A program made the translations under genes and the position numbers. Of a stretch of 64,000 nt of DNA, positions 38,413 to 55,517 are shown one piece after another. The notes beneath the pieces are model-generated. The model saw nothing but the letters and a program-made list of their open reading frames with translations, made no database searches and was not told where the DNA came from. This DNA comes from a virus. Every line of letters begins with the position of its first letter. Position 1 is the stretch's first letter. The stretch covers positions 51,865 to 115,864 of the IMG/VR virus record IMGVR_UViG_3300021963_000050. The stretch is one strand, 5' to 3'.

Positions 38413-40431
38413 ATGTCAGTAGATTTTTTCGAAGAAGGAAATGTTTCCAACCCTAAAAAGACAAGAAAGGGTTCTACCACCCCTATCCTTGATAATTTTT
38501 CAAGGGATTTAAACAAAATGGTTGAAGAAGGTAAAATTGACCCCGTCATTGGTAGAGATAGTGAGGTTAAGAGAATTGCTCAGATTTTATCTCGTAAAAA
38601 GAAAAACAATGTTGTAATAGTTGGTGATGCTGGTGTGGGTAAATCCGCTTTAGTTGAAAAGTTGGCACAACTAATCATTAAAGGTGATTGTCCGTCGAAT
38701 CTTTTAGATAAAAGAATCGTATCACTTGATTTAACATCATTAGTTGCGGGTACCAAGTATAGAGGTCAATTTGAAGAAAGAATCAAAGCGATATTGAATG
38801 AATTACAAAATGAACCCAATGTCATTGTCTTCATTGATGAAATACATACAATGGTTGGTGCGGGTAATGCCAGTGGTTCAATGGATGCTGCGAATATCAT
38901 GAAACCCGCGTTAGCAAGAGGTGAAATTCAATGTATTGGGGCAACCACTTTTGATGAATTTAAAAAACACATTGAAAAAGATGGTGCGTTAGTTAGAAGG
39001 TTTCAAAAAATAATTTTAAAAGAACCAACTAAAGAAGAAACGGTACAAATTTTAAATAATTTGAAAGACTCGTACCAAAGTTTCCACAAGGTATTTTATG
39101 AACCGAATGTATTTGAAACAATCGTTAACCTCTCATCAAGATTTATTACGGATAGACAATTCCCTGATAAGGCGATTGACGTAATGGACGAACTTGGTTC
39201 AGATAAAAAAATTAACACTAAAATTCCTGAAGTTTTAGAAAAACTTAAAAAAGATTCCGATGAATTAAAGGAAAGAAAAATACAAGTTGTTAAAAGTCAA
39301 AACTACGAACAGGCGGCAAAATTGAGAGATGAGGAAAGAAAGATATTGAGTAGGTTGGATGAAGAGAAGAAAAAATGGTTGGAAAAACAAAAGGATAACA
39401 AGACGCCAGTAACAGTAGATGATGTTTATGATATTATCTCACAAATGACAGGTGTCCCACTTTCTAAGATTGATGAAAGAGAAACATCAAACTTACTAAG
39501 TTTAGAAGAGAAGTTAAAATCAAAGGTAATTGGACAAGATGACGCCATTTCAATCATTTCAAAAGCGATTAGAAGAAATAGAGTTGGAATCAAAGACACA
39601 AATAAACCTATTGGTTCATTTATCTTCTTAGGGTCAACAGGTGTTGGTAAAACATATTTAGCAAAATCAATCGCTGAAATTTTATTTGGAGACCCCGACA
39701 AAGTTGTGCGTGTAGATATGAGTGAGTACATGGAAAAACACAATGTTGCAAAATTAATCGGTTCTCCTCCGGGATATGTTGGTTATGATGAGGGTGGACA
39801 ATTAACCGAAAAAATAAAGAACAATCCATTCTCAGTTGTTTTGTTTGATGAGGTTGAGAAGGCACACAAAGATGTGTTTAACATTTTACTTCAAATCTTG
39901 GATGAGGGTCACTTAACCGATTCATTTGGTAGAAAGGTTAACTTTACAAATACAATTGTGATTATGACATCAAACATCGGTGCAAAAAAAGTGTCCGAGT
40001 TTGGTAAAGGTGTTGGATTTGATTCCTCATCGTCTAACAGTCAAAATTTTGAAGTTAAAAAATCCATTGTACAAAAATCTTTGAAGCAACATTTTAATCC
40101 TGAGTTTTTAAATAGGGTTGACGATATTATCAGTTTCAATTCATTGGACAAAGACGTTATCAAAAAAATCATTGGAATTGAATTGAATAAATTAGTTGTG
40201 AGATTGAAGGATAAGAATTTCAAGATTTCATTTGATAAAACAATCATTGAAAGGATTTCAGAACTCAACACTCAAGAAGATTATGGAGCAAGACCAATTA
40301 AAAGAATCATTCAAAATCTCTGTGAGGACTTTTTGAGTGATTCAATTTTAAAGGGTGACATCAAAGAAAATGAAACCATAACTTTAAAATTTAAAGATGG
40401 TGAAATAAAAATTTTTAAAAAAAAGGTCTAA
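38413..40431 (+). CDS. Clp ATPase, ClpC/ClpA-like unfoldase lacking N-domain
   Basis: 672 aa, an HSP100 unfoldase with two AAA+ modules: Walker A1 GDAGVGKS (71-78), Walker B1 VFIDEIHTM (139-147), Walker A2 GSTGVGKT (407-414), Walker B2 VVLFDEVEKAH (475-485). Between the modules QNYEQAAKLRDEERK (297-310) is the UVR-type linker of ClpC. GVGF (533-536) sits at the site of the ClpP-docking loop, so it is ClpC/ClpA-like, not ClpB-like. The about 150-residue adaptor-binding N-domain is absent, and no clpP is in this window. It may therefore use host ClpP. Confidence 0.9.
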   Translation: MSVDFFEEGNVSNPKKTRKGSTTPILDNFSRDLNKMVEEGKIDPVIGRDSEVKRIAQILSRKKKNNVVIVGDAGVGKSALVEKLAQLIIKGDCPSNLLDKRIVSLDLTSLVAGTKYRGQFEERIKAILNELQNEPNVIVFIDEIHTMVGAGNASGSMDAANIMKPALARGEIQCIGATTFDEFKKHIEKDGALVRRFQKIILKEPTKEETVQILNNLKDSYQSFHKVFYEPNVFETIVNLSSRFITDRQFPDKAIDVMDELGSDKKINTKIPEVLEKLKKDSDELKERKIQVVKSQNYEQAAKLRDEERKILSRLDEEKKKWLEKQKDNKTPVTVDDVYDIISQMTGVPLSKIDERETSNLLSLEEKLKSKVIGQDDAISIISKAIRRNRVGIKDTNKPIGSFIFLGSTGVGKTYLAKSIAEILFGDPDKVVRVDMSEYMEKHNVAKLIGSPPGYVGYDEGGQLTEKIKNNPFSVVLFDEVEKAHKDVFNILLQILDEGHLTDSFGRKVNFTNTIVIMTSNIGAKKVSEFGKGVGFDSSSSNSQNFEVKKSIVQKSLKQHFNPEFLNRVDDIISFNSLDKDVIKKIIGIELNKLVVRLKDKNFKISFDKTIIERISELNTQEDYGARPIKRIIQNLCEDFLSDSILKGDIKENETITLKFKDGEIKIFKKKV

Positions 40432-42614: not shown

Positions 42615-42956
42615 ATGTCAACAAAAGAACCGAACAAACCAAAAGATACGGTAATTAAAAAACTCATACTAAAACAAGATTATAAAAACTTCAGTGATTT
42701 TTATAACATCAACAAAGAATCCATTTACAGAACCTTAGCAAATCTTTTTAAAAGTTTGAAGAGAAGGGATAAACAAGTGGTTATTTTAGTTTTGGGTGCT
42801 AAGATTAATGGACTACAATGGGAAACCGAGCTAAAGTTTAAAAGACAAGAATCAGTTGTTTTAGTCAGGGATATTTTACCTTTCTTTGAACAAAATGAAG
42901 ATTACGAAACTTGTGGAGAAATAACGGAAACCTACAATAAGATTTTAGAGATTTAA
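42615..42956 (+). CDS. Small unknown protein
   Basis: 113 aa. KKLILKQDYKNFSDFYNINKESIYRTLANLFKSL is a helix-turn-helix-like opening, followed by a strand-rich half (VVILVLGAKINGLQWETELKFKR). It may bind DNA or RNA. It has its own promoter and its 3' end overlaps the convergent 764-aa gene by 4 nt. Confidence 0.55.
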   Translation: MSTKEPNKPKDTVIKKLILKQDYKNFSDFYNINKESIYRTLANLFKSLKRRDKQVVILVLGAKINGLQWETELKFKRQESVVLVRDILPFFEQNEDYETCGEITETYNKILEI

Positions 42957-45247
42957 TAAGACGAAGAGGATAAATTAGCATCACCTTTTACTATGTACTT
43001 AATATTGAAAATTAATGAAGTATTGGTAAAATTAATTGTGAAATTTGTCACTGGTTGTACGTTGTTAAAATTCGACAAAGTTAGGGAGTTGAAATCTGAT
43101 GATGTGTACCAATACACTTCGTTAAATGGTATCATTCCACTAATGTTTGCACCCAACAGATAAGCGTCTGAAATATTAATTTTACCGTCTTTATTTATGT
43201 CCCCTGCTTTCATTTTAGGACCGTTGTTAAGTACTAAACCCGGTTGAAGTTGGGTTGGGGTATTTTCATTTTGTGACTCATTAAAAACTTCATTAAAGTC
43301 ATTTGATGTCAAAGATGGTGTGTACGTTGGTACAATCTTATACGTTGAATTATATTTGGTTGGGTTAAATGTGAATGAACCTGTTGCACCAACTATTGCG
43401 GTTTGCAGTAAAGTCTCGACCCCATTTTCAACCAAATAAAATTTTAATTCGGGTCTTACAGATAAACCTGAAGGGATAGTAACTGTTCCTGATATTGTTT
43501 CTGTTATTATCGTAACCGAACCTGAAGAACTAAATGCAAATCCACATGTCCCACTCTGTAATTGTGCTCTGAATAGAGTTTTTACGGATATGTTTGAATA
43601 AGACTGTGATGCGGTTGTATTCACAATATCGGTCCACGTAACACCGTCATTTGTTGACCTCTGCCATTTAACAATACTACCACTATACCCACTTAAAGTT
43701 AATGTTCCTGAGTTTGTTGTTGTGGTATGAATCGACGATGATACCGAACCACCAACAGGAGGTGTACCTGATGTCACGGTAATTGTTTTTGAGTCCGAAT
43801 TAACTGCACTACCACAATTTGGTGTTTGTACCTGAACTCGGTAATAATATGTTCCGGCTGAACTTAACGTTTGTGTTAAACTTGTAGTTGTGTTAGAAAT
43901 ATCTACCCAATTTATATTGTCTGTTGAACGTTGCCATTTATTTACATTACCCTGTTGACCTGATAATGTTAGTTCTACTTGACCACCGGCACATATTGAA
44001 TTATTAACAGCAAATATGGTACCCGATTTTGTTGGTTTAACTGACAAGAATACACTTGACGTTGGTAAACTTGAGCAAGTTGTTGGACTAGTTGAATTCA
44101 CAATCGCCCTATAGTATGTTGTTTTAGTTAGATTAGTTACGGTAATAGTTGATGATGTACTTGATATTGTCGTACCAGCGGTAAAAAAGTTATCAAATGA
44201 AGATTCCCATCTCGCGATACTACCTGTATATCCATTAAGTGTTAGTGTTGTACTATTACTACCTGAACAGACATTAATATCACCACCACTAATATACCCA
44301 CTTGATGCCCCACTAATTTCTAAATTTCTTGTTAATATGGTTGTACTTGTGGTGATGTCACCTGGCATGTCACCATATTCACAAATATATCCGGGTAGAG
44401 ATGTGTTTGGTAAATCATTCCATTGACCCGCATTACCTGAATAAAATTGACCGTAATGTTCTGCACCGGCATTATTAGGTTCCCCACCCGCCCATTTTGC
44501 ATATTGACCTGTAACAGCGGTACTACCGTTAGAAAATTGAGTTCCCTTTTCAGGTCCTGTAACCCAATGCCACTTTTGTTCAACGGCAGCTTGTGATGCG
44601 AACGCGGTGGTACCTTTAGCGGTATTGACCACACCCATTTCATCTGAAGCACCAAACCAACCATCTGACGACATTAATTTCCAAATAAAATTATTTTCCG
44701 CCTCAGATGACATTGTTGCCAAATAACCCGCTCTACCAAAATATGAACGATTTTCTGCGGATGTTTTTGAATTTGTCCACGTTGTTGAACCGGAAACATA
44801 TTCATAAAAATGTTCAGTTAATGGGTTGTAAAATACAATTCCCGCAACGAATGTTACTCTTCTTTGTAATGCGTAACAGGTAGAGGTTGTTGACCTAAAT
44901 TCAACTCCTCTTAAAACCGTTTCCCAATTTGAGGCGGTTGTTGTTCCATTAAAAACTAATACACCTGTGGTTGTATTGAATGCGGAAACAGTAATACCCG
45001 ACGGTAAAGTCGCTGTTGACCTTAATTGGTCACCACTTGTACCACTTATGTAACTTTGAGATATTTGAACTCTAAACCCATTAATTGTACCATTTGCGGT
45101 CAAAGTAAGATTCGGGTCAACCGTTGTCCAAGTATTAAAACTTGCGGAAAGTGTGCCCGTACTCGATGTGCCTAAAGAAACTGATGTTGCTTGTGAGTAA
45201 CCGAGAATCGGTAAAATTAAAAGTAATATAATAATTAAATTTCTCAT
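42953..45247 (-). CDS. Secreted C-type-lectin and dockerin-like protein
   Basis: 764 aa. N-terminal signal peptide MRNLIIILLLILPILGYSQA. A C-type lectin-like domain occupies about 137-292 (WAGGEPNN at 252-259, WND at 276-278, C124 and C289). Several Ig-like/Big-type beta repeats follow (TYYYRVQVQTPNCGSAVNSDSK type). The C-terminus has a carboxypeptidase-like beta domain and a dockerin-like calcium motif (GDINKDGKINISDAYLL). It ends where the 637-aa paralogue continues into its T9SS sorting domain. A cell-surface adhesin-type protein encoded by a phage. Confidence 0.8.
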   Translation of the reverse strand: MRNLIIILLLILPILGYSQATSVSLGTSSTGTLSASFNTWTTVDPNLTLTANGTINGFRVQISQSYISGTSGDQLRSTATLPSGITVSAFNTTTGVLVFNGTTTASNWETVLRGVEFRSTTSTCYALQRRVTFVAGIVFYNPLTEHFYEYVSGSTTWTNSKTSAENRSYFGRAGYLATMSSEAENNFIWKLMSSDGWFGASDEMGVVNTAKGTTAFASQAAVEQKWHWVTGPEKGTQFSNGSTAVTGQYAKWAGGEPNNAGAEHYGQFYSGNAGQWNDLPNTSLPGYICEYGDMPGDITTSTTILTRNLEISGASSGYISGGDINVCSGSNSTTLTLNGYTGSIARWESSFDNFFTAGTTISSTSSTITVTNLTKTTYYRAIVNSTSPTTCSSLPTSSVFLSVKPTKSGTIFAVNNSICAGGQVELTLSGQQGNVNKWQRSTDNINWVDISNTTTSLTQTLSSAGTYYYRVQVQTPNCGSAVNSDSKTITVTSGTPPVGGSVSSSIHTTTTNSGTLTLSGYSGSIVKWQRSTNDGVTWTDIVNTTASQSYSNISVKTLFRAQLQSGTCGFAFSSSGSVTIITETISGTVTIPSGLSVRPELKFYLVENGVETLLQTAIVGATGSFTFNPTKYNSTYKIVPTYTPSLTSNDFNEVFNESQNENTPTQLQPGLVLNNGPKMKAGDINKDGKINISDAYLLGANISGMIPFNEVYWYTSSDFNSLTLSNFNNVQPVTNFTINFTNTSLIFNIKYIVKGDANLSSSSY

Positions 45248-47004
45248 AAATTTATCTTACTACCAACTAAGAAAAATGATAGAATTGGAAATTCAGGGTT
45301 TGTACTCATGTTCGCCTTATAGTTAACATTTAACTTAAAACGTTTTGAGATTTGATAGTCAAAACCACTACCAATAAAACCACTCACATATCTATCAGTT
45401 ATTGATACGTTGTCTTTGGATGAATAAACTAAAGGTGTTGAAATAACATACAATTCGGGTGACACAATTAATTTTTTACCGACTTTAAATGGTCTTGTGT
45501 AAAAAGCGGTGATAGATGGTGAATAATAACCATTCTTTTCTTCCGATATAATTGTCGCAGCAGCACTTACGTTAAAACCCGTAATACCATATTTTCCACC
45601 ATTTAAAATACCACTATAACCAATAAAACCTAAATAATTACCATAAGTGTAAACCCCTGTCAGGTTTATGTTATGAATGAACTTCAACTTTTTTGTTTTA
45701 TTATAATGTATTTTAGTATATTTTGTTGACACAGCAAACTGTTTGAAATTTAACCAAACCATACCAGTTACCCCATAACTTGATAAACCTGTCATTGATG
45801 ATTTACTTGTCCCAATGTTTACTATTGGGGTAAACGTTCTATTCAAATTTTGAGCGGAGGTAACATCAGAAGAAACAATGATAGGGTTAGACCTCGCACC
45901 ACCATTACTACCCGATTTACCTTTTCCACCACCACTTGAACCACCGGAACCACCCGCGTTATTATCGTTGTGGGCATCATTGTTCATTTGTGTTGTTGCA
46001 CCAACTTCTTCACCTTGTTTTTGGGTGTTGTTTTGATTATTGTTCCCATTGGATGTACCTGTTCCACCATTATTTGAGTTTCCCGAACTACCGCTATTTC
46101 CTGTGGTGGTAGAACCACCGGAACCTCCGTTATTACCTGAAGTTCCCGAACTTCCTGAACCATTATTTCCTGTGTTTGTTCCGTTGGTTGTTCCCGAACC
46201 ACCTGTGGTGCTCGAACCATTTGAACCTCCGTTATTTGATGAGGACCCATTTCCGTTATTAGAACCACCTGTAGACCCTGAACCACCGTTGTTCGAACCC
46301 GAATTGTTTGATGGGGATGTCCCATTAGAGTTACCCGAACCTACAGACGGTTGAGTCGTTGAATTTCCCCCCTGAGTTGAGTTACCTGTACTTGATGACG
46401 TTCCTCCATTTGTTGAATTTCCACTTCCTTGAGTCGAGTTACCTCCTCCATTTGTTGTATTAGTTCCTGAATTCGATTGGGATTGTCCTCCATTTTGAGT
46501 TGTACTATTATTCGTAGTATTTGATTGAGATGAATTACTTCCATTACCTTGGTTATTATTGTTTTTCTTCTTATCAGAACTTTTATTATCCTTACCACCA
46601 GCATCACTACTACCCGACGAACCAGTTTCTAAACTAGATGATTGTGCTTGACTACTTGACAAAATCGAACTCACAACTGACTGAACCGTACTACCAATAA
46701 TTTGGGCGGTTATTTGGTTTTGAGTTACCTGACCCTGTTGTTGTGAACATGGGTTTGTTTGTCTGTATGTGGTATAAACCTGATTTACCCAATTGGAAAA
46801 TGTACCATTGGATAAATCGTTCGCGTCAAAACTACCAACATTATTTAAAAAAATAATCATCGTTTTACCCCCCTGTATTGGTACACTAAATATTGTGACT
46901 TCTTTTGTACAGGGGTCTATAAAAGTATACGTTGATACTTGTGCTTTCGATACATTACATACGAAAGTAAGAAAAAATGTTAATATTAATGTCTTAATGT
47001 TCAT
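45244..47004 (-). CDS. Secreted low-complexity protein with beta-barrel-like C-terminus
   Basis: 586 aa. Signal peptide about residues 1-21 (MNIKTLILTFFLTFVCNVSKA). Residues about 120-390 are Asn/Gly/Ser/Thr-only sequence (GSNNGGSGST type). The C-terminal 190 residues alternate Tyr/Gly/hydrophobic strands (LTGVYTYGNYLGFIGYSG, SPSITAFYTRPFKVGK) and end in a hydrophobic strand typical of outer-membrane beta-barrels. It overlaps the lectin gene by 4 nt. It may anchor or export surface material. Confidence 0.65.
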   Translation of the reverse strand: MNIKTLILTFFLTFVCNVSKAQVSTYTFIDPCTKEVTIFSVPIQGGKTMIIFLNNVGSFDANDLSNGTFSNWVNQVYTTYRQTNPCSQQQGQVTQNQITAQIIGSTVQSVVSSILSSSQAQSSSLETGSSGSSDAGGKDNKSSDKKKNNNNQGNGSNSSQSNTTNNSTTQNGGQSQSNSGTNTTNGGGNSTQGSGNSTNGGTSSSTGNSTQGGNSTTQPSVGSGNSNGTSPSNNSGSNNGGSGSTGGSNNGNGSSSNNGGSNGSSTTGGSGTTNGTNTGNNGSGSSGTSGNNGGSGGSTTTGNSGSSGNSNNGGTGTSNGNNNQNNTQKQGEEVGATTQMNNDAHNDNNAGGSGGSSGGGKGKSGSNGGARSNPIIVSSDVTSAQNLNRTFTPIVNIGTSKSSMTGLSSYGVTGMVWLNFKQFAVSTKYTKIHYNKTKKLKFIHNINLTGVYTYGNYLGFIGYSGILNGGKYGITGFNVSAAATIISEEKNGYYSPSITAFYTRPFKVGKKLIVSPELYVISTPLVYSSKDNVSITDRYVSGFIGSGFDYQISKRFKLNVNYKANMSTNPEFPILSFFLVGSKINL

Positions 47005-47013
47005 AGTGTATAT

Positions 47014-47042
47014 TAAAAAAGGGGTTTTACCCCCTTTTTATT
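47014..47042 (-). terminator. Intrinsic terminator after the CsgG-like gene
   Basis: Stem AAAAAGGGG / CCCCTTTTT with GTAAAA loop and T-run on the minus strand, 21 nt downstream of the 47064 stop. Genes 45244 and 42953 must have their own promoter or read through. Confidence 0.75.
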
Positions 47043-47063
47043 AGTATTATCAAACATTATTAA

Positions 47064-47822
47064 TTATTTAGGGAATACACCCTTTTTTATCATTCTTAAT
47101 AGAATTCTAGAACATGCAATATCTAATGCTTTTTTGGTACTAATTCCTATTGTCGATTGATTAAATTTAACTTCACTTAAATTATCGTCATTTAGTAAAC
47201 TTAATTCTCTAACGGTAACCGATTCACCCAATCCACTAGCCGCAATTATTTGACCCGTTTCTGCATCGGTGAATCTAACTTGTAACCCTAATCTTGTAAC
47301 AACAGTGTTTTTAACACCATTACTAAGATTAACTGTCTCATCCTCACTCACTGAAAATTCATAAACTTCAATTGTAACAAAATAGTGTGCTAAACGTATT
47401 TTTCCTCTACCATTTAAAGTATCATAACTGATACCCGCTTGAGAAGCTTGGTATTGTTTCACCATTCTATTTTTGATTTCGGTTTTATCCTCAGTAAATG
47501 TGAATCTATTTAAATTCTCCAAATATTCTAATGTTATATTTGCCACACCTAAACCTACTTTCTTTTCTTTTAATTCAGGATATTGTTCATATACTTCATC
47601 ACTGATTCCAATTTTTAGAATTTGTATTGGAATTTGTGGTCCGTCATAATCCATTAGTGAATCAATGCTCACATTAGTTTCAAACGATGCTTTATATTGT
47701 TCTGTTTGTGTTTTACCAACAACCTGTGCACTTACAGTATTGGCGAAGACAAACATCAATACAAACCATAGTATTATCAGAATTACTGGTGATAATAGTT
47801 TTTCTATGACAAATTTTTTCAT
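47064..47822 (-). CDS. CsgG/HfaB-like outer-membrane secretion protein
   Basis: 252 aa from the ATG at 47822, which lies just after the upstream stop; the longer frame is less likely. Signal peptide with a hydrophobic core (VILIILWFVLMFVFANTVSA). The mature part matches the CsgG pattern: a VANITLEYLENLNRFTFTED opening, I-K-N-x-M, an AHYFVTIEVYEF strand, RFTDAETGQIIAASG, and helices with A-x-x-x-A-C-S-R. CsgG forms the nonameric curli-export pore. No lipobox cysteine is seen after the signal, unlike E. coli CsgG. Confidence 0.65.
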   Translation of the reverse strand: MKKFVIEKLLSPVILIILWFVLMFVFANTVSAQVVGKTQTEQYKASFETNVSIDSLMDYDGPQIPIQILKIGISDEVYEQYPELKEKKVGLGVANITLEYLENLNRFTFTEDKTEIKNRMVKQYQASQAGISYDTLNGRGKIRLAHYFVTIEVYEFSVSEDETVNLSNGVKNTVVTRLGLQVRFTDAETGQIIAASGLGESVTVRELSLLNDDNLSEVKFNQSTIGISTKKALDIACSRILLRMIKKGVFPK

Positions 47823-47823
47823 T

Positions 47824-48360
47824 TTATTCGGGGTCTTGTATTTTACCACATTTCAAACATTCCAACTCACCGTCATTGTCTTGGTCACCCCAAACATGTT
47901 CGCATTGGCGATGTTCAAAATACTCATCAATTATACCATCGTTGTCATAATCTAAACCGTCCATAACACCATCACCATCTTCATCAATTTCAACACCAAC
48001 TTTTGATGTTGACTCGGTGATTGGTTCGTTTTTGGTTTCATTATTTGATGATTTCATATCTGCGGTGTTTGAAAAAGAAACACCATCTTCCTCATCCATT
48101 TTTTGTACTAACATCTTATCCTTATCGGTATCACTAAACCAATAGTCAATAATTTTACCATAAGAACCTATGAAAGCACCTAATAGTAGGAGAAGTAATT
48201 CTTTCCATTCACCACCGATTTCATTTTTACCTATAATAGCCGCGAAAATTCCAGCCATGATAAACATAAAACCACCTAACACAATCGCGGTAATAAACCA
48301 CCTTCTTTTCATCATTGCGTTAAGAAGGTCTCTAAATCCGGTTGGTTGATTGTTTACCAT
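47824..48360 (-). CDS. Two-TM membrane protein with calcium-type repeats and zinc ribbon
   Basis: 178 aa. Two hydrophobic helices (about 20-41 and 51-68, LLLLLLGAFIGSYGKIID) resemble small 3-TM phage holins. After a charged linker, DEDGDGVMDGLDYDNDGIIDEYF is a thrombospondin-3/EF-hand-like Ca motif. The C-terminus (CEHVW … ECLKCGK) is a zinc ribbon. It is a composite protein with holin-like N-part and an unusual soluble tail. It overlaps its upstream neighbour by 7 nt. Confidence 0.55.
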   Translation of the reverse strand: MVNNQPTGFRDLLNAMMKRRWFITAIVLGGFMFIMAGIFAAIIGKNEIGGEWKELLLLLLGAFIGSYGKIIDYWFSDTDKDKMLVQKMDEEDGVSFSNTADMKSSNNETKNEPITESTSKVGVEIDEDGDGVMDGLDYDNDGIIDEYFEHRQCEHVWGDQDNDGELECLKCGKIQDPE

Positions 48361-48695
48361 TGTGGCTCCTTTTCTTTGAATTCATCACCCTCTTTTTTAG
48401 GTTTTGCGGGTTCTGACTTAACCGGTTTTTCAACCACTCTTTCTTTTATTATAGTTGTGTTACCACCACCACTTGATGACGTATTCTTAGAAGAATTGTC
48501 AACATTTAAATTAATTACAGGTGCTGCTTGTTGTGTTTGGGTTGGTTCCTTTTCTTTGTCATCACCACCACCAAATAAGGTAGTTGTAAAGTAAGTTCCG
48601 CCAGCCATAACTGCCGTGGTAATAACCCCAATAATTGTTTTCTTCAGTCCTGACCATGTTCCGTCAGATTCTGGTACGTTTGTTTCTTCGCTCAT
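48354..48695 (-). CDS. Single-TM membrane protein
   Basis: 113 aa. It starts MSEETNVPESDGTWSGLK, followed by a hydrophobic segment (TIIGVITTAVMAGGTYFTTTLF). The rest is an Asn/Ser/Gly linker and a Lys/Glu/Pro-rich tail. It could be an anchor or lysis-accessory protein. Overlaps 47824 and lies in the same operon. Confidence 0.55.
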   Translation of the reverse strand: MSEETNVPESDGTWSGLKKTIIGVITTAVMAGGTYFTTTLFGGGDDKEKEPTQTQQAAPVINLNVDNSSKNTSSSGGGNTTIIKERVVEKPVKSEPAKPKKEGDEFKEKEPQW

Positions 48696-48699
48696 TGTT

Positions 48700-50613
48700 T
48701 TAAACTTTAATGAATTGTTTAGTTAATTGTTTATTATAATTATTTAATACTAAATAATAATTACCTGCTGCGGATGATGTCATATCAATTTGCTTATATG
48801 CAATTTTTTCTGATGAATTGGTTGAAACAGAACCGATGTTTTTAACCAATTGACCTCTCACGTCATAAATTGAACCAATCATCTCCATATTTGGATTTGG
48901 GAACCTAATTTCAATTTCAAACCAACCACTTGTCGGGTTTGGTCTAATTGATGCTGTGATTTCATCAATTGATTGGTCTGTAGGTGGGGCCATTTTGTAC
49001 ATAATAACCGCAATACTACTAACCAAATCAATGTTTAAATGGTCTCCTCTTTCATCTGACGCATCCATCAACTCTCTGACATAGATATTACTTACGATGT
49101 CATTATTACCAATTGGTGAGAATTTTAATTTAAATGGGGTTGCTTGACCAATCAAACCATTTTTGAATTGGTTATTCATACCACCAAATCTAATTGTACC
49201 ATTGGTTGCGTCGTGAGTTACATATTGTAACCATGGACCCCCATTAAAATTTGATACAATCTCTTCAAATTTAACTTTAGTTTTATCGTACTTCATTTCA
49301 AATTGTAATCCATAATTGTTATCACCATTTGTGTTAACATTAAATGGTACATATATTGGTTGACTTCCTGTTGCAGAAGTGTTAGGTATCTCAACATCTA
49401 ATTTACCTTTGAATACCGCTTTAGCAACTAATACACCTGATGAGTTCCATACTCTTGATGAATATGTTCTATCTACGTCACCCTGAATAAAGTATTTAAT
49501 GTTTACCGTTTTATTCACTAAACCAACACTATCCGTGATAAAATTGGTTGCGGTTAAATGGTTTGGCCAATCGTTCCATTGGGTTGAACCTAAAACTAAA
49601 GAGTCGTAAACACTCGCGTGGAAAGTTCTAATCATTGTTGTAGTATCTATTTTTTTCATACCACTTACGTTAGCGTAAATTAGATATGGGTCACCACCGT
49701 CTAATTTTCCGTTTTGGTTCATATCACCAATAAGGTACGCTAAACCATTTTTTAAATATTGTTGACCAAATCCTTGGTTAACATCTGTAATAGTATATTC
49801 ATCGTAAGTCTTAACCGCGTCTGATATTGTAACAGCATAATCCCTAAAGACTTCCATACTGTCAGCGGGGAATCTCACCAATAATTTATATTTGGTGTTT
49901 TTGTCTACGTTGTTTAGTGAATAGTTACCCGCGGTATCACATAAAGACGATGAAACAAAAGTACCTGTATTAAACTTTGTACATATAACTGTTGGTCTTC
50001 TACCAGCCAATTTCATTGTTGGTGGTAATTCAACAACGCCACTAATCACCAAGTTACCTAAAAGTTCAAGGTGCATATCTTGTACATTCAAGATTGCGAT
50101 GTTATCACCAATTGTAGAACCGTCATATTTGAACATTCTAGCCCAGTTAATTTCAACGCTATCGGCGTCAAAGTTTGATTCGACATCATTAATAATAAAT
50201 TTGTTATGTATTAAAAATGTGTCTTGTGTTATTTGAGAACCACTTGAAAGAACCAAGAAATTTCTCGCTACGGTGTAGTTAGTATCACTCGTATATGAAT
50301 ACAAACCTGTACCCGAACTATAACTTGAGTATTTGTAATTGCTAAAGAATTTTATCGAAAGAGCCGGAGTCATAGTACTCACAGTTGGGTCAACAGTAGT
50401 TGATACGTGAGTGAAAAGTTGTTTTCTATACTGAAAATCAACTTGGAATGTTCTTACGTCAACCGCAGATGCTGGTGTGTATTTAAACACAACATCTAAA
50501 GTGTCACCTCTTTTGATAGTTTTATACGCAACGGGATTACCTATTTGAGGTGTTTGTGAAAACGCCATTGTCGTGAGAAATAATGTAATTAGGAAAAGTG
50601 TTATTTTTTTCAT
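48700..50613 (-). CDS. Secreted protein with T9SS C-terminal sorting domain
   Basis: 637 aa. Signal peptide (MKKITLFLITLFLTTMAFSQ). Cohesin/Ig-like N-domain (residues about 30-170), a carboxypeptidase-regulatory-like beta domain, and a dockerin-like GDMNQNGKLDGGDPYLI motif. The last 84 residues (554-637) are a T9SS type A sorting domain: ASIRPNPTSGWFEIEI, GSIYDVRGQLVKN, GNYYLVLNN … FIKV. The signal would direct export through the host type IX system to the cell surface. Its central part is paralogous to the C-terminus of the 764-aa lectin protein. Confidence 0.85.
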   Translation of the reverse strand: MKKITLFLITLFLTTMAFSQTPQIGNPVAYKTIKRGDTLDVVFKYTPASAVDVRTFQVDFQYRKQLFTHVSTTVDPTVSTMTPALSIKFFSNYKYSSYSSGTGLYSYTSDTNYTVARNFLVLSSGSQITQDTFLIHNKFIINDVESNFDADSVEINWARMFKYDGSTIGDNIAILNVQDMHLELLGNLVISGVVELPPTMKLAGRRPTVICTKFNTGTFVSSSLCDTAGNYSLNNVDKNTKYKLLVRFPADSMEVFRDYAVTISDAVKTYDEYTITDVNQGFGQQYLKNGLAYLIGDMNQNGKLDGGDPYLIYANVSGMKKIDTTTMIRTFHASVYDSLVLGSTQWNDWPNHLTATNFITDSVGLVNKTVNIKYFIQGDVDRTYSSRVWNSSGVLVAKAVFKGKLDVEIPNTSATGSQPIYVPFNVNTNGDNNYGLQFEMKYDKTKVKFEEIVSNFNGGPWLQYVTHDATNGTIRFGGMNNQFKNGLIGQATPFKLKFSPIGNNDIVSNIYVRELMDASDERGDHLNIDLVSSIAVIMYKMAPPTDQSIDEITASIRPNPTSGWFEIEIRFPNPNMEMIGSIYDVRGQLVKNIGSVSTNSSEKIAYKQIDMTSSAAGNYYLVLNNYNKQLTKQFIKV

Positions 50614-51107
50614 AGTATTAATTTGTTTATTAGGGTTTGAGTTGTTTTCTTTAATGCCGAACTAGCAGATTGTTGATTGAATTTACCACCCTCATCAATC
50701 ATAATAGTTGAGGTTGAAATTTCGGTAGATTTACCTTCCGAGAATTCCTGTTTAATTTTTTTATCACCTTTGTATAAAACACCTTTCATTCTTATCACAG
50801 TCGTTGTTTTATCTTCGTGAAAAATACTAACCCCCGAGTTAGTTGTTACAATGTCAAAAAATATAAGTTCAACTTTAATTTTGTAGTCGGCTTTATTTTT
50901 ATCTGTAATCAGAATTAAACTATCCTGTTCGTTTATGATTTCTTCAATGATGTTTTTTACACCAAAAGCTAAATTTTTGTTTTCAGTAAACGGACCAATT
51001 TTAATGTTATTGATAACAGTATCAACAACAATAGTTTGAGCATTTAGATTAGAAAATCCAAATGATATTAAAAATAATAGTAATATGATGGGTAATCTTT
51101 TCATCAC
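50610..51107 (-). CDS. Secreted CsgG-type small-domain protein
   Basis: 165 aa. Signal peptide (KRLPIILLLFLISFGFSNLNA). The mature part (IGPFTENKNLAFGVKNIIEEIINEQD, LITDKNKADYKIKVELIFFDIV) resembles CsgG/FlgO-type outer-membrane accessory proteins: a 'find and measure' alpha/beta unit, with A-D-Y-x-(I/V) strand. It is 4 nt coupled to the T9SS gene. Possibly an assembly factor of the surface system. Confidence 0.5.
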   Translation of the reverse strand: MMKRLPIILLLFLISFGFSNLNAQTIVVDTVINNIKIGPFTENKNLAFGVKNIIEEIINEQDSLILITDKNKADYKIKVELIFFDIVTTNSGVSIFHEDKTTTVIRMKGVLYKGDKKIKQEFSEGKSTEISTSTIMIDEGGKFNQQSASSALKKTTQTLINKLIL

Positions 51108-51121: not shown

Positions 51122-51148
51122 GGAAAAAACGGGGTTATTAGACCCCGT
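51122..51148 (-). terminator. Intrinsic terminator after the 84-aa gene
   Basis: Stem ACGGGGT / ACCCCGT with TATTAG-type loop, followed by TTTTTT on the minus strand. Confidence 0.85.
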
Positions 51149-51153
51149 AATTC

Positions 51154-51408
51154 TTATTCAGAAACTTCGTCTTCTGATTTTTTCTTATGTGAGAACTTGT
51201 CTAAAGTATCTGCACCCATTCCAATTGCAGTAATTACCATTACCGCATTTACCAATTCTTCTGATGGTTTAATGTCACCATGTGTAAAAGAGTTTGCCAT
51301 CATGGTTCCGCAAAGGAATAACGCACCTAAGAGCGCGATTACCGGTTTGATTGAAGTTGACCCTCTTTCGTCTTTGAATAGGTCAATAATCCATTTTTTA
51401 AAGTTCAT
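51154..51408 (-). CDS. Small two-TM protein, holin candidate
   Basis: 84 aa. KDERGSTSIKPVIALLGALFLCGTMM and VNAVMVITAIGMGADTLDKFS give two TM helices with charged ends; phage holins with the K-x-x-x-S-x-K-x-V style N-helix are common. A TATTTATA motif (51445) upstream and a strong terminator downstream make it a single-gene late unit, as expected for a lysis gene. Confidence 0.6.
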   Translation of the reverse strand: MNFKKWIIDLFKDERGSTSIKPVIALLGALFLCGTMMANSFTHGDIKPSEELVNAVMVITAIGMGADTLDKFSHKKKSEDEVSE

Positions 51409-51824: not shown

Positions 51825-51897
51825 GGTACCGTAGCTCAGTAGGTAGAGCACCAGACTGAAAATCTGGGTGTCACTGGTTCAAATCCAGTCGGTACCA
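51825..51897 (+). tRNA. tRNA-Phe (GAA)
   Basis: GGTACCG/CGGTACC acceptor, anticodon arm CCAGA-CTGAAAA-TCTGG, T loop TTCAAAT. No CCA encoded. Confidence 0.95.
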
Positions 51898-51902
51898 CAC
51901 TT

Positions 51903-51976
51903 GTCTTCGTAGCTCAGTTGGTTAGAGCACCTCACTTTTAATGAGGGAGTCACGCGTTCGAGTCGCGTCGGGGACA
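51903..51976 (+). tRNA. tRNA-Lys (TTT)
   Basis: GTCTTCG/CGGGGAC acceptor; anticodon arm CCTCA-CTTTTAA-TGAGG; T loop TTCGAGT. Confidence 0.95.
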
Positions 51977-51984
51977 CAAAGGTT

Positions 51985-52110
51985 GATTGGGGAATGGTTA
52001 TGTCTATAGTTCGAGAGTGAATACTGACTGATATAATCGGAGTTTGGAGGTATTCACCTAAGTAACGCCAATCGTAAAAGGAGATGTCCACTGAACCATC
52101 TTCTCCTTTC
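51985..52110 (+). ncRNA. Structured spacer RNA between tRNA-Lys and tRNA-Val
   Basis: GATTGG (51985) pairs with CCAATC (52068); GTGAATAC (52017) with GTATTCAC (52050); CTGAT-ATA-ATCGG hairpin inside; then AAAGGAGA … TCTCCTTT (52077/52102). No ORF longer than 14 codons lies within it. Function unknown. Confidence 0.45.
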
Positions 52111-52118
52111 CTTGACTT

Positions 52119-52191
52119 AGTTCCTTAGCTCAGTTGGTAGAGCATCTGCCTTACATGCAGAGGGTCGTTGGTTCGAATCCGACAGGAACTA
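52119..52191 (+). tRNA. tRNA-Val (TAC)
   Basis: AGTTCCT/AGGAACT acceptor; TCTGC-CTTACAT-GCAGA anticodon arm; T loop TTCGAAT. Confidence 0.95.
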
Positions 52192-52199
52192 CATTATAC

Positions 52200-52270
52200 A
52201 CAGGTGTGGTGAAAGGGTATCATACCGGTCTCCAAAACCGTTGTTGGGAGTTCGAATCTCTCCACCTGTG
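52200..52270 (+). tRNA. tRNA-Trp (CCA)
   Basis: ACAGGTG/CACCTGT acceptor, anticodon loop CTCCAAA, discriminator G. Confidence 0.93.
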
Positions 52271-52345
52271 CAAATTATATGTAAAGACATATAAAATAAC
52301 GGTACATAATAAAATTATATCTAAAAACATATAAAACTAAAAACT

Positions 52346-52777
52346 ATGAATAATCAAATGGGAATCGAAGCAGCAAAAATTAAATTTGAGGCTGAGAAAA
52401 TGAAACTAAAGGAGGAAAGAGAACAAAGGATTAAAGATTTTTGGGAAAACGGAATACCCAAATTAAATAATCCTGAAGACGTACCAACCCTTCCAAGAGT
52501 GAATGAAAAAGAATGGAAAGAGTATTATGTACCAAGATTGATTGATGCGGGTGCAATCCCCAAAAAAGATTTAATCCACGGACAAGTTTATATTGGTGAC
52601 CATCGAAACACAGATGTTGCAAGATGGAATCAAGAAACAAATAAATTTGACCATATGAGATATAAATTTGGTTGGAGGAAAGATGACTGTAACCATTTTG
52701 AAGATGATGATGGGTTTGCGTTATTTGTTCCGATTAGATTAGGTACTGAAGATGATTGGAATGAAAGAATTAAATAA
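52346..52777 (+). CDS. Unknown soluble protein within the tRNA array
   Basis: 143 aa. N-terminal Lys/Glu coil (AAKIKFEAEKMKLKEERE), then a compact domain (NEKEWKEYYVPRLIDAGAIPKKDLIHGQVYIGDHRN, KFGWRKDDCNHFEDDDGFALFVPIR). Tyr/Trp/His spacing suggests a small enzyme-like or nucleotide-related fold, but I do not recognise it. Confidence 0.6.
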   Translation: MNNQMGIEAAKIKFEAEKMKLKEEREQRIKDFWENGIPKLNNPEDVPTLPRVNEKEWKEYYVPRLIDAGAIPKKDLIHGQVYIGDHRNTDVARWNQETNKFDHMRYKFGWRKDDCNHFEDDDGFALFVPIRLGTEDDWNERIK

Positions 52778-52782
52778 ATGAT

Positions 52783-52856
52783 ACTCTCGTAGTTCAATGG
52801 ATTAGAACATTTCACTACGGATGAAAGGGTTGGGAGTTCGAGTCTCTCCGAGAGTA
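52783..52856 (+). tRNA. tRNA-Arg (ACG)
   Basis: ACTCTCG/CGAGAGT acceptor; TTTCA-CTACGGA-TGAAA; needs A-to-I editing of A34 for full decoding. Confidence 0.95.
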
Positions 52857-52862
52857 CAATAA

Positions 52863-52932
52863 GGTCAGTTTGGTCATGGAGGCCGGTTAGTCTGCAAAAC
52901 TAACGGAGTTGGTTCGATTCCAACATTGACCT
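52863..52932 (+). tRNA. tRNA-Cys (GCA)
   Basis: GGTCAGT/ATTGACC acceptor; anticodon loop CTGCAAA; discriminator T as usual for Cys. Confidence 0.95.
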
Positions 52933-52947
52933 CAATATAAGGTCTGA

Positions 52948-52972
52948 ACCTAATAGTGGGGGATTATTAGGT
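52948..52972 (+). other. Hairpin between tRNA-Cys and tRNA-His
   Basis: ACCTAATA-GTGGGGGAT-TATTAGGT, perfect 8-bp stem. No T-run; possibly a processing or folding element. Confidence 0.5.
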
Positions 52973-52988
52973 CTAGAACTTATAATAT

Positions 52989-53063
52989 GGTAGATATAGT
53001 TCAGTTGGTTAGAACGTCTGATTGTGGTTCAGAAGGTCGTCGGTTCGAATCCGATTATTTACC
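52989..53063 (+). tRNA. tRNA-His (GTG)
   Basis: GTAGATA/TATTTAC acceptor with G at -1 opposite C73 (His identity); TCTGA-TTGTGGT-TCAGA. Confidence 0.95.
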
Positions 53064-53069
53064 CTTTAT

Positions 53070-53146
53070 TGGAATATAGCTCAATTGGTTAGAGCATTCG
53101 TCTGATACGCGAAAGGTTATAGGTTCGATTCCTATTATTCCAACCA
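53070..53146 (+). tRNA. tRNA-Ile (GAT)
   Basis: TGGAATA/TATTCCA acceptor; TTCGT-CTGATAC-GCGAA; CCA encoded (53144-46). Confidence 0.95.
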
Positions 53147-53151
53147 AACAT

Positions 53152-53225
53152 TGCGGGGTGGACTGGAGAGGTTCCAGCTCAGTCTCATAAGCTGAATGAC
53201 GTGGGTTCGATTCCCACCCCCGCAA
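53152..53225 (+). tRNA. tRNA-Met (CAT), first copy
   Basis: TGCGGGG/CCCCGCA acceptor; TCAGT-CTCATAA-GCTGA. The acceptor resembles initiator tRNA, but the GGG/CCC anticodon stem is absent; could also be Ile-CAT. Confidence 0.85.
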
Positions 53226-53283
53226 CTTTTTCATTGAATATTTTGAAATATGAAATTTCATGTTTATATTTTAATTGTTCGTT

Positions 53284-53297
53284 TGTTCTTTGAAATA
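53284..53297 (+). promoter_or_regulatory. boxA-like element, copy 3
   Basis: TGTTCTTTGAAATA, related to the copies at 51799 and 54898. Confidence 0.45.
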
Positions 53298-53302
53298 AAA
53301 AT

Positions 53303-53404
53303 ATGGGTATAACTAGGGTCGAGCCAGATTTTGCCACGGTTATATCAAGGGTTGGAAGGACCAGAGCTGGCCGTGACTACTCCAACCCACTATCGCCTCC
53401 TTAG
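53303..53404 (+). CDS. Small ORF (33 aa) ending inside tRNA-Thr
   Basis: ATG 53303 to TAG 53402-04; basic/proline-rich (MGITRVEPDFA … RVGRTRAGRD … NPLSPP). It overlaps the start of tRNA-Thr by 10 nt. The underlying RNA also forms a pseudoknot-like fold (CACGG 53335 with CCGTG 53371; GGGTTGG 53349 with CCAACCC 53382), so coding status is uncertain. Confidence 0.25.
   Translation: MGITRVEPDFATVISRVGRTRAGRDYSNPLSPP
53316..53394 (+). ncRNA. Pseudoknot-like structured spacer
   Basis: CACGG (53335)/CCGTG (53371) and GGGTTGG (53349)/CCAACCC (53382) cross, giving a pseudoknot. Function unknown. Confidence 0.4.
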
Positions 53405-53468
53405 CTCAGTTGGCCAGAGCGCCTCACTTGTAATGAGGATGTCGTTGGTTCGAATCCGACAGGAGGCT
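53395..53468 (+). tRNA. tRNA-Thr (TGT)
   Basis: GCCTCCT/AGGAGGC acceptor; CCTCA-CTTGTAA-TGAGG. Confidence 0.95.
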
Positions 53469-53477
53469 CTGCAGGGT

Positions 53478-53563
53478 TTTCGGTGTAAAGGGTGTCACAA
53501 CCTACCTGAGCAAAACCTAACACATGTCCACTATGTGTTAGGGTAATGTGGATAAAACCGAAA
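53478..53563 (+). ncRNA. Structured spacer before tRNA-Asp
   Basis: TTTCGGT (53478)/ACCGAAA (53557) closing stem and a perfect 10-bp hairpin CCTAACACAT-GTCCACT-ATGTGTTAGG (53516-53542). Confidence 0.45.
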
Positions 53564-53565
53564 TT

Positions 53566-53637
53566 GGTCTCATAGTTAAACGGCTATAATGCAGCCCTGT
53601 CACGGCTGAGTTCGGGGTTCGATTCCCCGTGGGACCG
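53566..53637 (+). tRNA. tRNA-Asp (GTC)
   Basis: GGTCTCA/TGGGACC acceptor; CAGCC-CTGTCAC-GGCTG; discriminator G. Confidence 0.95.
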
Positions 53638-53639
53638 CA

Positions 53640-53735
53640 ATGGGTAAGAGATACTCAGGAAGATTGGCTACATTCTTTAAAAAAGTAGTGGTGGTAAAAA
53701 AATCCTCGACCTTAATGAGGTATCGATTCGGATAA
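53640..53735 (+). CDS. Small basic ORF (31 aa) after tRNA-Asp
   Basis: ATG 53640 to TAA 53733-35, starting 2 nt after tRNA-Asp. Sequence is strongly basic (KRYSGRLATFFKK, VVKKSST). Coding status is uncertain; no ribosome binding site beyond A-rich context. Confidence 0.25.
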   Translation: MGKRYSGRLATFFKKVVVVKKSSTLMRYRFG

Positions 53736-53814
53736 AACGGTAGCAAGACTCTGCACCGCCGACGTATAGAGTTGACAGGTTTTTATGTGGTAAGACACTA
53801 ATGAGAAAGGCCCA

Positions 53815-53895
53815 ATGATGGAGGACACTTTTAAGCAATATGTTCAGAGAGCGTTGGGGGATATGGTTCTCGAAACAGTGAGAGAAACCCGTTAA
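53815..53895 (+). CDS. Small ORF (26 aa)
   Basis: ATGATG at 53815 to TAA 53893-95, amphipathic helix-like (DTFKQYVQRALGDMVLETVRE). Coding status is uncertain. Confidence 0.25.
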   Translation: MMEDTFKQYVQRALGDMVLETVRETR

Positions 53896-53928
53896 AATCT
53901 ACTTATTGTAATCTCAGATAAGGAAATT

Positions 53929-54014
53929 GGAGAGTTGGCAGAGCTGGTTGAACGCGGCGGTCTTGAAAACCGTTTTATCGAAAGGTAACGGGGGTTCGAA
54001 TCCCTCACTCTCCG
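53929..54014 (+). tRNA. tRNA-Ser (TGA)
   Basis: GGAGAGT/ACTCTCC acceptor; long variable arm; loop CTTGAAA; discriminator G. Confidence 0.95.
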
Positions 54015-54022
54015 CAAATTAT

Positions 54023-54097
54023 GGCCCTTTCGTCTATCGGTTAGGACAGGTCCCTTTCACGGACCAGAGACGGGTTCGATTCCCGTAGGGGCTACCA
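54023..54097 (+). tRNA. tRNA-Glu (TTC)
   Basis: GGCCCTT/AGGGGCT acceptor; GGTCC-CTTTCAC-GGACC; CCA encoded (54095-97). Confidence 0.95.
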
Positions 54098-54111
54098 AAC
54101 AAAAAACCAAT

Positions 54112-54354
54112 ATGTTAGAGAAAATTTTAGAACAATACGAAGGTGAAGAAATCTTAATCGCGGATGGATTTGATAATGCTGTTATAGGTATTGACGAATC
54201 TTCAATGAGATTAATTTATTCTGTTGAAAAGTGTATAGAAATCCTTATGAAACAAGGAATGGATATGACTGAAGCCGTTGAATACTTTGATTTTAATGTG
54301 TCAGGTTCATATGTTGGGGAGAAGACACCAATATGGTGTGACGATTTATTTTAA
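54112..54354 (+). CDS. Conserved phage-type protein (VIGIDESSMRLIYSVEK family)
   Basis: 80 aa. IADGFDNAVIGIDESSMRLIYSVEKC … FDFNVSGSYVGEKTPIWCDD is a recurring phage protein pattern that I recognise as a family, but its function is not known to me. Starts 15 nt after tRNA-Glu. Confidence 0.65.
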   Translation: MLEKILEQYEGEEILIADGFDNAVIGIDESSMRLIYSVEKCIEILMKQGMDMTEAVEYFDFNVSGSYVGEKTPIWCDDLF

Positions 54355-54467
54355 AAAATAACACCCTATGTTACCCTATTGTTAAAGGAATTTATTAATA
54401 TGTTTTTTTTATTATATTACAATATCTATAAGTAATAATAAAAAATAAAAACAAACAAAAGAAAATT

Positions 54468-54632
54468 ATGCAAAAAGAACAAATACTAGGAATCGTAAGA
54501 CACACATTAACATTTATTGGTGGTGCATTAGTAGCAAAAGGATTAACAACAGACGTTTTATCTAATGAATTAATTGGTGCTGCAATGACATTAATTGGTG
54601 GTGTGTGGTCAATCATATCAAAAAATAAATAA
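54468..54632 (+). CDS. Small phage holin (Pam3-gp28-like)
   Basis: 54 aa. MQKEQILGIVRHTLTFIGGALVAKG, then ELIGAAMTLIGGVWSII, ending SKNK: two short hydrophobic helices, a pattern typical of small holins. It was not picked up as a long ORF because it is short. It would permeabilise the inner membrane, together with or as alternative to the 51154 protein. Confidence 0.8.
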   Translation: MQKEQILGIVRHTLTFIGGALVAKGLTTDVLSNELIGAAMTLIGGVWSIISKNK

Positions 54633-54648
54633 AAAAATTTTAAAATTA

Positions 54649-54679
54649 CTTGTAAATAAAAAAACTTTTCGTATCTTTG
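54649..54679 (+). promoter_or_regulatory. Bacteroidetes-type promoter of the second tRNA array
   Basis: CTTG (54649-52), 19-nt spacer, perfect TATCTTTG (54672-79). Confidence 0.8.
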
Positions 54680-54696
54680 TAATAGTTATTTAAGAA

Positions 54697-54801
54697 ATGA
54701 TGAACTTGGTATACATACAACAACCGTCAAACAATCCACTTAGTGGTAATGGGAGAGGTATATATTTATGTGGCCCAAGTTCGGAGTTAAACAAGTTGTA
54801 A
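54697..54801 (+). CDS. Leader peptide candidate of the second tRNA array (34 aa)
   Basis: ATGATG at 54697 to TAA 54799-801, 18 nt after the promoter -7 element. It begins MMNLVYIQQPSNN and ends SSELNKL. The stretch AGTTCGG near its end is one arm of a possible antiterminator. Same promoter-ORF-terminator-boxA-tRNA order as at 51506-51897. Confidence 0.5.
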   Translation: MMNLVYIQQPSNNPLSGNGRGIYLCGPSSELNKL

Positions 54802-54838
54802 GAAAGTAAAAAACTTATAGACAGGTGAAACCCGAACT
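54778..54838 (+). promoter_or_regulatory. Predicted antiterminator pairing
   Basis: AGTTCGG-A-GTT (54778-88) pairs with AACCCGAACT (54829-38) with a one-nt bulge, competing with the terminator. Confidence 0.55.
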
Positions 54839-54860
54839 CAAAAAAAGTTCGGGTTTTTTG
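54829..54860 (+). terminator. Intrinsic terminator/attenuator
   Basis: Perfect 10-bp stem AACCCGAACT / AGTTCGGGTT with a CAAAAAA loop and TTTTTG tail. Confidence 0.8.
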
Positions 54861-54891
54861 TTTTTTAAGATTTTCGCTCTTATATTTTGAT

Positions 54892-54899
54892 TATATTTG
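54892..54899 (+). promoter_or_regulatory. TANNTTTG-type -7 element without clear -33
   Basis: TATATTTG fits the Bacteroidetes -7 element and overlaps the boxA-like copy by 2 nt; no TTG at the right distance. Confidence 0.35.
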
Positions 54900-54920
54900 T
54901 TCTTTGACATATTGGTTTAA
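54898..54920 (+). promoter_or_regulatory. boxA-like element, copy 2
   Basis: TGTTCTTTGACATATTGG, identical over 23 nt to copy 1 and just before tRNA-Leu. Confidence 0.6.
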
Positions 54921-54926
54921 GTAGAT

Positions 54927-55011
54927 GCCGAGGTGATGGAATGGTAGACATGAGGGACTTAAAATCCCTTGGACAGTAATGTTCGTGTGGGTTCGACTCC
55001 CATCCTCGGTA
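54927..55011 (+). tRNA. tRNA-Leu (TAA)
   Basis: GCCGAGG/CCTCGGT acceptor; loop CTTAAAA; long variable arm. Confidence 0.93.
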
Positions 55012-55223: not shown

Positions 55224-55297
55224 GTCTCCGTAGCTCAGTTGGATAGAGCAACAGCCTTCTAAGCTGTGGGTCATTGGTTCGAATCCAATCGGGGATA
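55224..55297 (+). tRNA. tRNA-Arg (TCT)
   Basis: GTCTCCG/CGGGGAT acceptor; ACAGC-CTTCTAA-GCTGT. Confidence 0.95.
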
Positions 55298-55299
55298 CT

Positions 55300-55442: not shown

Positions 55443-55444
55443 AT

Positions 55445-55446: not shown

Positions 55447-55517
<71 letters not shown>

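Follow-up and report, generated by a model that had tools for sequence, protein, structure and literature searches.

Several described systems share features with the phage operon analyzed here, which lies in a 64,000-nucleotide stretch of viral DNA (the window). The cellulosome resembles it in having a surface-anchored cohesin protein, an adaptor with cohesin-like and dockerin-like domains (represented by gp14 of phage immuto) and diverse effectors carrying one dockerin-like module. Unlike the cellulosome, the module is encoded by a phage and is predicted to be anchored by T9SS rather than by SLH or sortase. Moreover, its heads would bind glycans rather than being enzymes, one of its two dockerin repeats is degenerate, and the cohesin–dockerin binding is a prediction.

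A second group of related systems is formed by the CsgG–CsgF operons of pelagimyophages and methylophages, in which a phage operon encodes a CsgG-fold exported protein together with small hypothetical proteins (PMC7029224, PMC9004378). ‘Sibling capture’ has been proposed as the role of the CsgG/CsgF operons in pelagimyophages (PMC7029224), and a lysis-type role was proposed for CsgGF of methylophage Melnitz (PMC9004378). In contrast to these operons, the window module has no CsgF, its CsgG-like protein appears not to be lipidated and is not recognizable as CsgG by sequence, and it combines this protein with T9SS, cohesin, dockerin and lectin proteins.

There is one earlier report of a phage with T9SS cargo, Cryophage, presented as a unique case (PMC7468147). 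As in the module described here, some Cryophage genes encode T9SS type A sorting domains, one of them in a PA14 protein, and its cargo is highly variable; its enzymes and PA14 protein, however, carry their own tails, and the accessible part of that report mentions no cohesin, dockerin or CsgG-like partner (PMC7468147). No other relevant paper on T9SS in phages was found in the open literature. The same module is nevertheless present in a cultured phage, immuto (Immutovirus), as gp13-gp19, with the differences that the cargo is split into two genes and that a 178-aa protein is missing; openly searchable texts do not describe it. The parts are therefore known separately in phages (T9SS cargo; CsgG/CsgF), as the preliminary description of the locus had partly anticipated, and neither cohesin/dockerin coupling nor this combination in phages is reported in the open literature, subscription papers lying outside the search. 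As far as that literature goes, the conserved gene set, shared by this phage and hundreds of relatives, has no described precedent in a virus; it probably leads the infected bacterium to display exchangeable sugar-binding proteins on its surface through a cellulosome-like cohesin/dockerin coupling.

Organization of the Operon

The window derives from IMG/VR virus record G000 (115,864 bp) and contains T4-type head genes for the terminase, portal and major head proteins. Relatives of its terminase include T4-like phages and phage immuto (28%), and the phage is a T4-like phage of Bacteroidota. Five genes for exported proteins, all named in the preliminary description and all found where it had placed them, form one compact minus-strand operon (42953-51107) together with two membrane-protein genes. 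Intergenic gaps range from -26 to 59 bp, and some genes overlap. A terminator-like hairpin (51129-51148) sits between the operon and an upstream gene for an 84-aa protein, which is probably a separate unit; no Bacteroidetes-type promoter was found at the operon start. About 5 kb separate the module from a cluster of head genes. From the upstream gene onward, the genes are as follows.

51154-51408, minus strand: two-TM protein, 84 aa, upstream of the operon (from the sequence)
50610-51107, minus strand: small exported CsgG-type protein, csg165, 165 aa (sequence; profile match to the CsgG-like family)
48700-50613, minus strand: T9SS cargo, scaffoldin-like protein, 637 aa (signal peptide, cohesin-like domain 1, CnaB-like plus dockerin-like module, cohesin 2, T9SS sorting domain)
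48354-48695, minus strand: single-TM inner-membrane protein with a Pro/Lys-rich tail, 113 aa (from the sequence)
47824-48360, minus strand: two-TM membrane protein, 178 aa, with the strongly conserved motif WKELLLLLLGAFIGSYGKIIDYWFSDTDKDKMLVQKMDEEDG
47064-47849, minus strand: CsgG-fold exported protein, 261 aa (fold match)
45244-47004, minus strand: low-complexity linker-barrel exported protein, 586 aa (domain layout in relatives)
42953-45247, minus strand: C-type lectin protein, 764 aa, with a dockerin-like module at its end (profiles of relatives)

Conserved Export Signals

Each of the five exported proteins, for which signal peptides had been proposed, begins with a hydrophobic region followed by small-x-small|Q, the pattern of a signal peptide. 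Gln at position +1 fits Bacteroidota signal peptides. By a pattern test (not SignalP), counted over unique relatives, the signal is conserved in the lectin (77/79), cargo (119/121), barrel (96/96) and CsgG-like (99/101) families, as well as in 53 of the 81 relatives of the small CsgG-type protein, against a background of 128 among 1330 other ORFs. Elsewhere in the window, the pattern is absent from all plausible genes.

These signals bear on the possibility that the lectin and the cargo are parts of the phage particle, serving in receptor binding or adhesion. Phage tails often bear C-type lectin and Ig-like domains, and the distance of about 5 kb to a head-gene cluster would agree with such a role. 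The conserved signal peptides and the T9SS tail point elsewhere, and virion decoration is also argued against by the location of the immuto module beside replication genes, over 80 kb away from the genes for capsid and tail; openly searchable texts yielded no virion proteomics of immuto. Particle parts are thus a very unlikely identity for these proteins. The preliminary description had named virion components without signal cleavage as the outcome that would count against it; judged from sequence, the signal peptides are instead conserved in these families.

The T9SS Cargo as a Predicted Small Scaffoldin

The 637-aa protein consists of four consecutive regions.

50014-50553, minus strand: N-terminal cohesin-like domain, aa 21-200 (weak Pfam and PDB profile matches, Foldseek)
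49423-50028, minus strand: CnaB-like plus dockerin-like module, aa 196-397 (paralogous to the lectin C-terminus)
48979-49416, minus strand: cohesin domain 2, aa 400-545 (Pfam Cohesin in relatives, PDB profile)
48703-48978, minus strand: T9SS type A C-terminal sorting domain, aa 546-637 (PF18962, TIGR04183)

The tail scores above the cut-offs of both sorting-domain models, PF18962 (E=3.5e-7; 30.9 bits, cut-off 27) and TIGR04183 (E=1.1e-5; 25.3, cut-off 23). With this domain and a Sec signal peptide, the protein has the sequence features of a T9SS type A cargo, and its secretion is predicted to depend on the T9SS of the host. Exactly one above-cut-off tail per genome occurs in 8/10 module genomes. 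In G000, a second candidate tail (G000:C1:35728-35844, 19 bits) was rejected as it falls below the cut-off and lies inside a baseplate-like protein. With exported proteins, a real sorting tail and a conserved operon, the earlier terms ‘cell-surface operon’ and ‘T9SS-like’ are well founded. T9SS anchoring is not universal, however, because in the subtype L054-L083 the cohesin protein carries no tail. The operon of this subtype encodes two small lipoproteins that weakly resemble sorting domains, a hint at a different mode of anchoring.

The cohesins were overlooked in the preliminary description. Pfam Cohesin matches 18/34 cargo relatives (best 5.9e-9); the window cargo itself scores 16.8 bits, under the Pfam cut-off of 24.1. 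When the profile of cohesin 2 was compared with the PDB, 15 of the 17 matches were cohesins or cellulosome scaffoldin chains (best 5.5e-4). Additionally, a Foldseek search with the AlphaFold model of the cargo (pLDDT 86.9) returned a type II cohesin dyad and cellulosome scaffoldins as first matches, and single cohesins align to the model at TM 0.7-0.8. Cohesin 2 is securely a cohesin by sequence and fold. A cohesin is also the probable identity of the N-terminal domain: PF00963 matches it in G007 (E=9.4e-4) and in immuto gp14 (0.005), both below the cut-off, and its best PDB profile match is a cohesin (E=0.15).

The Lectin, Its Dockerin-like Module and Exchangeable Heads

Two regions of the 764-aa protein could be assigned.

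44348-44830, minus strand: C-type lectin domain with EPN and WND motifs, aa 140-300 (Lectin_C, PDB, motif)
42956-43525, minus strand: CnaB-like plus dockerin-like C-terminal module, aa 575-764 (profile matches)

Lectin_C is found in all 27 aligned lectin relatives (27/27, best 3e-15), and a PDB comparison matches the CEL-I lectin (E=8.7e-14). The EPN and WND residues are invariant in the alignment, and EPN together with W(N/S/T)D occurs in 75/75 proteins with the motif. A CTLD with an EPN/WND calcium–sugar site marks the protein, on its sequence, as a C-type lectin; from the EPN site, a specificity of the mannose/GlcNAc type is predicted.

The end of the lectin is paralogous to the middle of the cargo, as had been noted before; BLAST gives E=8e-11 and profile–profile comparison 99.7% (E=1.9e-25). 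The common segment has the sequence signature of a CnaB-like plus dockerin-like module. Among its profile matches in the PDB, 14 of 17 are dockerins or dockerin-bearing chains; two repeats are aligned with the best dockerin (6.1e-4), but an EF-hand protein ranks first among all matches. Type I dockerins have a duplicated 12-residue calcium loop with an F helix; here, one loop is canonical (DINKDGKINISD in the lectin), the first repeat is degenerate, and the Pfam dockerin match is below the cut-off. The names ‘dockerin’ and ‘lectin’ used in the preliminary description fall below Pfam cut-offs in the window protein and were secured through its relatives.

In these relatives, the same dockerin-like C-terminal module carries different heads: a C-type lectin, PA14, GEVED (above the cut-off) or an unassigned head. 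Within the immuto group, pairs of proteins with different heads are 36-56% identical over their last 130 residues, and the CsgG-like proteins are 80-96% identical. In other words, heads are swapped on a common module, a feature that the preliminary description had not recognized.

A glycan-binding head could also belong to a secreted nutrient- or polymer-binding complex, that is, an auxiliary metabolic module combining glycan capture with outer-membrane transport. Cohesin–dockerin systems are mostly known from polysaccharide use, and relative L055 has a TonB-dependent receptor inside the module. This receptor was present in only one of the fully inspected loci, however, and the modules inspected encode no glycan-degrading enzyme, which makes nutrient capture an improbable function.

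CsgG-Fold Proteins

For the 261-aa protein, a Foldseek search with the predicted model gave CsgG of E. coli (4uv2/6l7c) as top matches (E=7e-8, prob 1.0), followed by the CsgG-related folds PelC and FlgT; the model is a monomer of moderate confidence (pLDDT 75.9). Pfam, the PDB and a comparison with CsgG of E. coli K-12 yielded no match to CsgG by sequence, and PF03783 matched 0/23 family members and nothing in G000; therefore, only the fold is claimed. The residue at +1 of the signal peptide is Q, not the lipid-anchor C, in 99/101 proteins, and the protein is predicted not to be lipidated. The label ‘CsgG-like’ consequently stands for the fold, and fails for the sequence and for the lipid-anchor cysteine. 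The gene, which is the most conserved of the module, probably starts at an internal ATG at residue 10. The small 165-aa protein matches the CsgG-like family by profile (90%, E=1.5e-6) and is a distant relative of the 261-aa protein.

It had been suggested that the genes resemble a curli-like assembly module, in which the CsgG-like protein would be the pore for a phage or host fiber, as in ‘sibling capture’. The CsgG fold, the second small CsgG relative, the S/G/N-rich segment of the 586-aa protein and the CsgG/CsgF operons of pelagimyophages (PMC7029224) speak for this idea. On the other side, the CsgG-like protein has neither a lipobox nor a sequence match to CsgG, and CsgF (PF10614) and the curlin repeat (PF07012) are absent from 10 module-bearing genomes, the E. 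coli control being positive. The absence of both from these genomes means that this is not a curli operon, and the curli reading was dropped. A fiber-secreting function in the wider sense is quite improbable, and the main interest of the operon lies in the proposed cohesin–dockerin display rather than in curli.

Linker-Barrel Protein and Membrane Proteins

The 586-aa protein is composed of an N-terminal domain with two conserved Cys, a 257-aa linker rich in S/G/N/T and a 214-aa C-terminal domain. In relatives that could be parsed, the linker varies between 88 and 269 aa, and the C-terminal part remains constant at 211-216 aa. From this constant length and the pattern at its end, the C-terminal domain is probably an outer-membrane barrel; a PDB profile search with the protein gave no meaningful match. 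Of the low-complexity, barrel-like protein described earlier, the linker is evident, and the barrel found no PDB counterpart. The 113-aa membrane protein has a homologue in immuto gp16 (49% over 51 aa).

Small membrane proteins, two or three of which lie in or beside the operon, raise the question of lysis: together with an outer-membrane pore and barrel, they could disrupt the envelope late in infection, in agreement with the proposal made for Melnitz (PMC9004378). The 178-aa protein was considered as a holin and rejected, and searches with the membrane proteins turned up none of the known holin families. A lysis role is also argued against by the placement of the immuto module in the replication region, with the lysozyme gene elsewhere and distant. 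A lectin, cohesins and a T9SS tail, moreover, are not needed for lysis. An envelope-opening module is therefore unlikely.

Distribution and Conservation

The genes of the module are conserved together in some 160 viral contigs, and the commonness of the module had not been appreciated in the preliminary description, although the operon itself was correctly recognized there. Scans of viral contigs found 523 encoding stretches with the CsgG-like protein and 113 with its immuto homologue, two sets that may overlap. Over 163 loci, which are not independent events because many are near-identical copies, the CsgG-like protein occurs in 163 (true by construction, because it was the query), the linker-barrel protein in 157, the 113-aa protein in 154, the cargo in 153, the small CsgG-type protein in 144, the lectin in 125 and the 178-aa protein in 109. 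The module genes share one strand in 162/162 loci, and 46 loci have the exact gene order of the window.

The synteny in other phages extends to a cultured one. All five exported proteins and the 113-aa protein have homologues among gp13-gp19 of Flavobacterium phage immuto, most of them annotated as hypothetical. In immuto, the cargo is divided between gp14 (cohesin-like plus dockerin-like) and gp15 (cohesin plus T9SS tail), and the 178-aa protein is missing.

A plasmid or bacterial origin was considered and set aside: a plasmid search returned no homologue, and 84,980 species genomes yielded one distant homologue only, in an Ignavibacteriales genome. This distant bacterial homologue of the CsgG-like protein (L084) carries a site resembling a lipobox. 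Between the window and L006, dN/dS is 0.006-0.135 for all seven genes, with dS near saturation for some; the module is therefore under purifying selection. The operon is thus real and conserved, and selection marks it as functional.

Proposed Surface-Display Mechanism

It is fairly likely that the operon is a phage-encoded surface-display system, built from a cohesin scaffold and dockerin-tagged exchangeable heads. During infection, host Sec would export five of the proteins, and the host T9SS would move the 637-aa protein over the outer membrane by means of its C-terminal sorting domain and anchor it there. We infer that this protein acts as a small scaffoldin, whose cohesin domain or domains would bind the dockerin-like module of the lectin or of its PA14/GEVED replacements. 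Interchangeable glycan-binding heads would then coat the infected cell.

The lectin carries no T9SS sorting tail, and for this reason the CsgG-fold and barrel proteins are natural candidates for its route. Together with the small CsgG relative, they would probably form its outer-membrane route or base, and the two membrane proteins probably act on the inner-membrane side of the apparatus. Most likely, the coat alters what the infected cell binds or what binds it. Among several conceivable benefits to the phage, a guess would be receptor masking with exclusion of competing phages, or adhesion to neighboring cells or particles.

More tentatively, and at somewhat less than an even chance, widespread phages of Bacteroidota may build a T9SS-anchored, cellulosome-like scaffold with glycan-binding heads, exported through a dedicated CsgG-fold/barrel apparatus, which would represent a new kind of host-surface re-programming. 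Since immuto, growing on Flavobacterium sp. LMO8, is cultured and has the whole core module, the module is testable now. If the proposed reading is right, it would place the CsgG genes of other marine phages, so far puzzling, in a new context. Phages would then be giving infected cells a coat of interchangeable sugar-binding proteins by means of the host T9SS and a plug-in coupling akin to that of the cellulosome, and one could test directly what aquatic Bacteroidota attach to, or hide from, during infection.

Module variants in viral relatives

Within the module of one viral relative (L055, 12684-16360), a TonB-dependent receptor gene, with PF14905, plug and CarbopepD_reg above cut-off, is adjoined by a lipoprotein-like gene. 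The two make up an outer-membrane transporter pair encoded by the phage. In another relative (L075, 10740-12251), genes read as glycosyltransferase-like and metallophosphoesterase-like lie between the CsgG-like and linker-barrel genes. In one subtype the cohesin protein is without the T9SS sorting tail; its module contains two small lipoproteins (L055, 8190-8902; L075, 7824-8545) that weakly resemble the T9SS sorting domain. A fourth type of head on the dockerin-like module was found in three loci (L099, 1167-2441; L104, 4501-5775; L108, 3494-4762); a Pfam search of the L099 copy gave no match for it.

Other genes of the window

An array of 25 tRNA genes (51825-57499) adjoins the operon. Other genes are:

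9714-10934, glycosyltransferase (PHROG, E=7e-41)
13965-15038 and 15035-15814, two further glycosyltransferase-like genes (by reading)
38413-40431, a ClpA/ClpB-like ATPase of 672 aa that matches the PHROG family for ATP-dependent protease (E=6.5e-244)

The glycosyltransferase group (9714-15814) lies near structural genes.

Bacterial homologue and possible surface or virion modification

On an Ignavibacteriales chromosome (L084, 7986-11856), a lipobox-carrying homologue of the module's CsgG-like protein is adjoined by a second CsgG-type gene, with a large gene downstream. This locus is a possible bacterial source of the CsgG-type gene pair. The glycosyltransferases of 9714-15814 may offer the phage a second route to modifying the surface or the virion.
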